A stretch of 64,000 bases of DNA from the NCBI RefSeq assembly GCF_013299175.1, contig NZ_JAAFKF010000007.1, positions 1 through 64,000 of the forward strand. Reading direction: 5' to 3'. This document shows positions 49,777 through 52,860 of the stretch, piece by piece (the stretch's first letter is position 1; the number at the start of each line of letters is the position of its first letter). The stretch is from Sphaerotilus sp. Lineage in GTDB: Bacteria; Pseudomonadota; Gammaproteobacteria; Burkholderiales; Burkholderiaceae_C. The translations under genes were made by a program, and so were the position numbers. A model generated the notes under the pieces. That model saw only the letters and a program-made list of their open reading frames with translations. It was not told where the DNA came from and searched no databases.

Positions 49777-50718
<942 letters not shown>

Positions 50719-50752
50719 AGACTGTGCTTGCGTCCTGGAGTTCCCTTTCAGT

Positions 50753-50779
50753 TTAGCACTCGCACTCAGCGAGTGCTAA
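50753..50779. promoter_or_regulatory. CIRCE element (HrcA operator)
   Basis: TTAGCACTC-GCACTCAGC-GAGTGCTAA: exact consensus with 9-bp spacer. Confidence 0.93.
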
Positions 50780-50814: not shown

Positions 50815-52860
50815 ATGAACGATCGAAAACGAACGCCGCCCATGGACTGGTGGGACGGGGTGAGATTGCTGGTACGGGCGGACTGGATGCTGCTGGTGCG
50901 GGACCGCCGTTTTGCCGTGGCGGTTGCGGGAGCCTTGTTCATTCCGGCGCTGTATGCGCTGATCTACCTGTCGAGCATGTGGGATCCGAGCACGCGCACC
51001 GGCGCGCTCCGGGCGGGTCTGGTCAACGCCGACACGGGCGTGGTGTTCCGCGGCCAGGCCACGCGCATGGGCGAGGAAGTCAGCCAGACGCTGATGCGCC
51101 AGGGGCTGTTCGACTGGCACCGCTTCGACGACACCGAAGCCGCGAAGCTGGCGGTGCGTCGGGGCGAGTTGAACTTTGCGGTGCTGATTCCGCCGAACTT
51201 TAGCGAGCAGGCGCTGCCCGGCCGCGAAGCCGGCGCTGCCAAGCTGGTGATCTACACCTCCGAGGGCAACAGCTACAGCGCCGCCGGCTTCGCCAAGCGT
51301 TTCGCGCCCGAGCTGGCGCACCGCGTCAACGAGGCGCTCAACGAGCGGCGCTGGGACATGGTGCTGGCCTCGGCCGAGGGTTCGAAGCTGAATCTGGCGA
51401 CGCTGCGCGAGCGGGTCGGACAGTTGCGCGACGGCAGCCGGCTGCTGGCCGACGGCGTCCACCAGGCCCGGCAAGGCGTGGCCGAGCTGACGCAGGGCAT
51501 CAACCGGGCCGGCGACGCCACCGCCCAGGCCCAGCGCGGCGCCACGCAGCTCGCGGACGCCGGCACCCAGTTCACGGGCGGCTGGCGGCAGTTGTCCTCC
51601 AGCCTGCGCGCACTCGACGCCCACCGCCCCGCCGCCAACGATTTCGATCCCCTCAAGTCCGGCGTGCAGCGCCTCGCCCAAGGGCAGACCGAGCTGGGCA
51701 AAGGGCTGGAGCAGCTCCAGCAGGGCGCACGCCAGCTCCAGAACGGCGCCCAGACACTGCAGCACAGCGCCGCGCAGATTCCGCTGATCGGCGACGGATT
51801 GTCCGAAGGTGCGCTGGCGCTGGACAACGGCGCAGGGCAGCTCTGGCTGGGCCTGGGCCAGGCGCGGGACAGCAACCAGCGCCTGCTCGGCGGCACCCAG
51901 CAACTCCAGACCGGCCTGCAGACCCTGACCAGCGGATTCACCCAGTTCAGCGGCGCACTGCACCAGATCACCACCGCACTGCCCGACGACAGCCGCCTCG
52001 ACGCCCTGCCCCACGGTGCGCAGCAGCTCGGCAGCGGTCTGCTGACGCTCGGAGACGGATTGCGCAAGCTCCAGGGCGGTGGCAACCAGTTGCACAACGG
52101 ACTCGGGCGGCTGGAGACGGGCAGTGCGCAGTTGCGCGACGGATTGGCCCTGCTCGTGGACGCGCTGCCCGCCGACGTGACGATGCCCGAGGGCAGCGCA
52201 CGCGGGCTGGCCGACTCGGTGGAACCCGCCCTGGAGATCGTGGCGCCCGTGCGCAGCGATGGGGCGGGGTTCGCGCCGAACTTCGTGCCGATGGCGCTGT
52301 GGATCGGGGCGGTGTCGGCGGCGCTGCTGTTCAAGCTGCGCCGCCTGCCCCACACCGCCGCGCCGCTGTGGCGCACGGCGCAAGTGACGGGCAAGCTGGT
52401 CTGGCCCGCCATGGTGGTACTGGGACAGTCGGCGGTGATGGTGGTCATGATGGTGGGCGTGCTCCACATCCGCGTCCACGACATCGGCCCCTTCGTCGCC
52501 ACCGTGACCGCCGCGTCGCTGACCTTCCTGATGATCCTGTTCGCGCTGATCCGCTGGTTCGGCGAGCTGGGCAAGGTGCTGGGCATCCTCCTGCTGATCG
52601 TGCAGTTGTCCTCGGCCGGGGCGACGCTGCCCATCGAGCTGACCACGCCCTTCTTCCAGACGCTGCACCCTTACCTGCCCTTCACCTGGGTCGTGCGGGC
52701 CTTCCGGGCCAGCATGTTCGGGGCCTATGACGGCCAGTGGCTGGCGCACTGGACGGTGGTCGCCGTCTGTGGCGGCACGGCGCTGCTGGGGGCGATGCTG
52801 GCGGGCCGCTGGACGGTCATCCCGGCGGCGGACTACCGCCCCGGCATCGACTTCGACTGA
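50815..52860 (+). CDS. YhgE/Pip domain membrane protein (ABC-2-like)
   Basis: N-terminal TM then ALRAGLVNADTGVVFRG; long LxxGxxxLxxG coiled repeats; C-terminal TM block; start at MNDRKRTPP. Confidence 0.85.
   Translation: MNDRKRTPPMDWWDGVRLLVRADWMLLVRDRRFAVAVAGALFIPALYALIYLSSMWDPSTRTGALRAGLVNADTGVVFRGQATRMGEEVSQTLMRQGLFDWHRFDDTEAAKLAVRRGELNFAVLIPPNFSEQALPGREAGAAKLVIYTSEGNSYSAAGFAKRFAPELAHRVNEALNERRWDMVLASAEGSKLNLATLRERVGQLRDGSRLLADGVHQARQGVAELTQGINRAGDATAQAQRGATQLADAGTQFTGGWRQLSSSLRALDAHRPAANDFDPLKSGVQRLAQGQTELGKGLEQLQQGARQLQNGAQTLQHSAAQIPLIGDGLSEGALALDNGAGQLWLGLGQARDSNQRLLGGTQQLQTGLQTLTSGFTQFSGALHQITTALPDDSRLDALPHGAQQLGSGLLTLGDGLRKLQGGGNQLHNGLGRLETGSAQLRDGLALLVDALPADVTMPEGSARGLADSVEPALEIVAPVRSDGAGFAPNFVPMALWIGAVSAALLFKLRRLPHTAAPLWRTAQVTGKLVWPAMVVLGQSAVMVVMMVGVLHIRVHDIGPFVATVTAASLTFLMILFALIRWFGELGKVLGILLLIVQLSSAGATLPIELTTPFFQTLHPYLPFTWVVRAFRASMFGAYDGQWLAHWTVVAVCGGTALLGAMLAGRWTVIPAADYRPGIDFD

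Follow-up and report, generated by a model that had tools for sequence, protein, structure and literature searches.

An exact CIRCE element before rpoH in Sphaerotilus sp., a predicted HrcA operator conserved across the Burkholderiales

In Sphaerotilus sp. the gene rpoH, encoding the heat-shock sigma factor sigma-32, is preceded by an exact CIRCE palindrome, TTAGCACTC-N9-GAGTGCTAA, the nine-nucleotide loop being GCACTCAGC (TTAGCACTC-GCACTCAGC-GAGTGCTAA). With a probability of roughly 0.8 this element would be a functional HrcA operator through which rpoH is repressed by occlusion of its -10 region, in which case rpoH and groESL would be derepressed jointly. The window, i.e. the whole stretch of 64,000 nucleotides analyzed, contains no second match with up to three mismatches, none was expected from 100 shuffles, and a chance origin of the element is excluded. 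The adjacent minus-strand gene, which reads away from the CIRCE element, was assigned to rpoH by its TIGR02392 score (Table 1). An earlier note on this DNA had described a perfect CIRCE element 35 bp upstream of the rpoH start; the perfect match and its position before rpoH were confirmed, and the distance has to be corrected to a gap of 34 nt from the annotated ATG. A second in-frame ATG is separated from the element by 43 nt.

Table 1. Features around the CIRCE element, in coordinates of the window.
Feature	Position	Strand	Basis or detail
rpoH, heat-shock sigma factor sigma-32	49777-50718	-	TIGR02392, 393 bits (cut-off 323); Pfam sigma-70 regions 2 and 4
Second in-frame rpoH ATG	50707-50709	-	Only ATG in loci L041, L085, L105 and L123
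Predicted sigma-E-like promoter, GGAAC-N18-TCTAT	50717-50744	-	-35 at 50744-50740, -10 at 50721-50717
Predicted extended -10 (TGC-TAAACT) of a housekeeping-type rpoH promoter	50750-50758	-	Conserved T; function inferred
CIRCE, predicted HrcA operator	50753-50779	no strand	Exact match and conservation before rpoH
Divergent YhgE/Pip family gene	50815-52860	+	TIGR03061, TIGR03062

Rather than being a local oddity, the CIRCE element before rpoH is a conserved, order-wide rule. When rpoH loci from the genus, the family and the order were compared, the operator was present upstream in 30 of 30 (own genome included), with at most two mismatches in 29 and with four in one locus (L050), although this and the other conservation counts given here overstate the number of independent cases because the genomes are related. 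Named relatives with enough upstream sequence, including Comamonas, Acidovorax, Variovorax, Rhodoferax, Roseateles, Methylibium, Rubrivivax and Aquincola, carried it before rpoH with no more than two mismatches in all 79 cases. CIRCE was found in 107 of 120 genomes of the order, usually in two copies, and the 30 CIRCE loci examined in the order, that of the window included, divided into 15 rpoH and 15 groES loci, no other gene being represented. The idea of the earlier note that rpoH is an unusual CIRCE target is therefore not supported for this order. Outside the order but within the class, the operator was present with at most two mismatches at 19 of 29 rpoH loci; among the rpoH loci of further classes of the phylum, no CIRCE reached this threshold, the best candidate (L213) having four mismatches.

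The window's assembly (3,998,019 bases in 201 contigs, 94.8% complete) encodes one HrcA. Its C-terminal domain scores 208.5 bits (PF01628) and its winged-helix domain 27.4 bits (PF03444), each above the cut-off. Among the checks that the earlier note had named are the presence of hrcA in the genome and conservation of the element across the Burkholderiales, and on both of these its proposal was borne out. In a genome scan of this incomplete assembly the rpoH element was the single CIRCE, and groES was found neither there nor in the incomplete genome of the nearest relative (G123). Each of the 16 further genomes searched from genus and family has groES with a CIRCE element, and the lack of the gene in the two incomplete genomes probably reflects gaps in their assemblies. 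As groES, the usual bearer of the other CIRCE, is missing from the assembly of the window, the count of one is probably explained most simply by such a gap.

Presence of the operator and presence of its repressor go together. HrcA was detected in 19 of 19 order genomes with CIRCE and was absent from 11 of 13 without it; of the remaining two CIRCE-less genomes, one (G083) has an HrcA fragment with a stop and the other (G029) has HrcA, its rpoH not being found. Comparison of 19/19 with 2/13 gives a Fisher p of 6e-7, a value that overstates the strength of the evidence because the genomes are related. The operator disappears where hrcA has been lost, and one genus offers a close view of this. Two of its members (G077 and G118) have perfect operators, and in a third (G033), where HrcA is not detectable, the operator (L222) has decayed to five mismatches. 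Despite this decay, an embedded GGAAC-N18-TCATA and a TAAAAT survive in L222, showing that the operator is separable from the promoter. The link between HrcA and rpoH can also be lost, as G162, from the same class, has HrcA but no CIRCE before its rpoH (L170).

Bases flanking the operator suggest how HrcA could act at rpoH. On the rpoH side of the operator, all 107 loci have T as the third base and 98 have A as the second base after it, whereas the third base after groES operators is T in only 2 of 31, and nothing comparable to the conserved T was seen on the left side of the operator. Together with these flanking bases, the TGC-TAA of the operator forms an extended -10, TGC-TAANNT; six bases of the predicted -10 in the window fall inside the right arm of the operator. 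That the conserved NAT merely extends the operator was also considered and rejected, because these bases are seldom present at groES and have no mirror image on the left. The -35 of the predicted housekeeping-type promoter is weak, and a simple scan of the intergenic region for sigma-70 and terminator consensus sequences found no promoter because the rpoH -10 is atypical. Since the right arm of the operator forms part of the extended -10, HrcA should block RNA polymerase directly, by occlusion of the -10. In unstressed cells, bound HrcA would exclude RNA polymerase from the housekeeping-type rpoH promoter; heat, or titration of the chaperone GroE, would inactivate HrcA and relieve rpoH and groESL at the same time, after which sigma-32 would raise the wider heat-shock regulon. 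Such GroE titration logic is known from other HrcA systems.

A second promoter-like motif occurs at these loci in two placements. In 35 of 107 loci, against 0.08 expected from shuffles, GGAAC-N18-TCnnW begins 12-16 nt before the operator and has its sigma-E-like -10 inside it; with the first base left free, the number rises to 46 of 106. In 17 of 107 loci, including the window and against 0.06 expected, the motif is located downstream of the operator, and no locus has both forms. In the downstream form the -10 ends 6-7 nt ahead of an in-frame ATG, also in loci whose spacers are unrelated (L085, L105, L113, L123); in the window the second rpoH ATG sits 7 nt after this -10. A rough FastTree phylogeny places the downstream form in the region that holds Rubrivivax, Roseateles, Aquincola and the genus of the window; the operator-overlapping form occurs in Comamonadaceae and outer families. 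At the rpoH start, two in-frame ATGs lie within 50707-50718, and because several relatives have the second alone, translation may really begin there, three codons after the annotated start.

The earlier note had named an rpoH promoter downstream of the element and unaffected by HrcA as evidence against its proposal, and the sigma-E-like motif is a candidate for such a promoter: it lies downstream of CIRCE in this genus, so that HrcA control of rpoH may be partial. Carried further, this leads to the reading that HrcA represses one rpoH promoter only and that a main, sigma-E-like promoter downstream of the operator leaves rpoH largely free of HrcA here, a view that we regard as a serious but less probable one. 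It draws on the identical placement of GGAAC-N18-TCTAT and its relatives in 17 loci with unrelated spacers, on the RpoE encoded in the window's assembly (TIGR02939, 258 bits, above the cut-off), and on Burkholderia pseudomallei, where RpoE drives a heat-inducible rpoH promoter (PMC5994319). The motif is good in many relatives; however, the window's copy on its own is not above chance and its -10 is an imperfect TCTAT instead of TCTRA. Furthermore, no site with the strict sigma-E consensus was found in the Sphaerotilus genome, the motif is absent from the 4.7 kb upstream of the organism's own rpoE (the true operon start being uncertain), and the operator has nevertheless been kept intact. The own rpoE (L239) apparently follows acpP- and fabF-like reading frames; a short frame lies in between, and rpoE overlaps the end of it. 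Several start sites have been reported for rpoH of Cupriavidus metallidurans (PMC7563307). In the window's clade, a sigma-E-type promoter may transcribe rpoH beside the operator, and the downstream element possibly gives a leaderless transcript that escapes HrcA. Tentatively, one HrcA operator in Burkholderiales might cover both the housekeeping and the sigma-E -10 of rpoH, and the Sphaerotilus/Rubrivivax-like clade might have moved the sigma-E promoter to the start codon.

For some groE leaders, CIRCE has been proposed to act as an RNA stem-loop, and a transcript starting further upstream would likewise include the palindrome at rpoH. That the element acts as a stem-loop in the rpoH leader and not as a DNA operator is nevertheless quite improbable, as transcription from the conserved -10 at its right-hand border should begin only past the palindrome and as the site is lost along with hrcA. 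Still less credible is an operator serving the divergent YhgE/Pip gene instead of rpoH: this gene also starts 35 nt from the element, on the opposite side, but it adjoins rpoH in only six other loci, all from the same genus and all with the operator kept, while the operator stands beside rpoH in all loci, so that the element as a control site of yhgE was rejected on neighbourhood comparison and the gene is probably not its target.

HrcA control of rpoH, as preferred here, would employ the same operator and repressor as the control of groESL, and genus mates also have CIRCE at groES. In the groES loci of the genus (L145-L157), the right arm of the operator is GAGTGCTAG, and it is preceded by a promoter-like CTTGAA...CCTATAAT that resembles a sigma-32/sigma-70 hybrid. 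This promoter lies wholly upstream of the groES operator, whereas the rpoH operator contains part of the -10. In E. coli, the rpoH promoter P3 is sigma-E-dependent, the consensus having a GGAACTT-like -35 and a TCnnA-like -10. The sigma-E-like motif, whose -10 is imperfect in the window, resembles P3 and the B. pseudomallei promoter (PMC5994319) in both boxes and in its E. coli-like spacing, but differs from them in that its -10 is inside the HrcA operator in Comamonadaceae and some other families, and downstream of the operator near the start codon in the window's clade. The literature searched held no report of the combined rpoH promoter or of the shift of the sigma-E-like motif.

CIRCE upstream of rpoH has been published for Geobacter sulfurreducens, and the parts of that paper considered here (PMC545781) describe a perfect consensus near the rpoH start, at position -51, as well as HrcA and sigma-32 in one genome, as in Sphaerotilus. 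The targets given there are rpoH, hrcA-grpE-dnaKJ and groESL, whereas only groES and rpoH were found here, and a promoter overlap at rpoH is not described in those parts. They cite a 2003 survey of beta-, gamma- and epsilon-proteobacteria, and this survey (Permina and Gelfand) may well already list the rpoH CIRCE for this order. The earlier note had put rpoH under HrcA and had treated CIRCE before rpoH as unusual. The first part gains from the hrcA gene, the conservation, the -10 overlap and the joint loss, and the second is not supported, given the CIRCE loci of this order and the Geobacter case; the HrcA reading of rpoH is right in substance, yet ordinary for the order.

Heat-shock control based on the repressor HrcA and control based on sigma-32 are often presented as alternatives. 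The arrangement suggested by these sequences would place HrcA above sigma-32 throughout the order and, probably, across much of the class, and a small HrcA regulon consisting of groESL and rpoH would reach the entire heat-shock response via sigma-32. As the sigma-E-like motif of a locus lies either inside or outside the operator, never both, the logic by which two stresses are integrated becomes directly testable. If the sigma-E promoter has indeed been moved in the Sphaerotilus/Rubrivivax-like clade, envelope stress would produce leaderless rpoH mRNA independently of HrcA in these bacteria, and the shift would represent a natural rewiring of the integration of heat and envelope stress.
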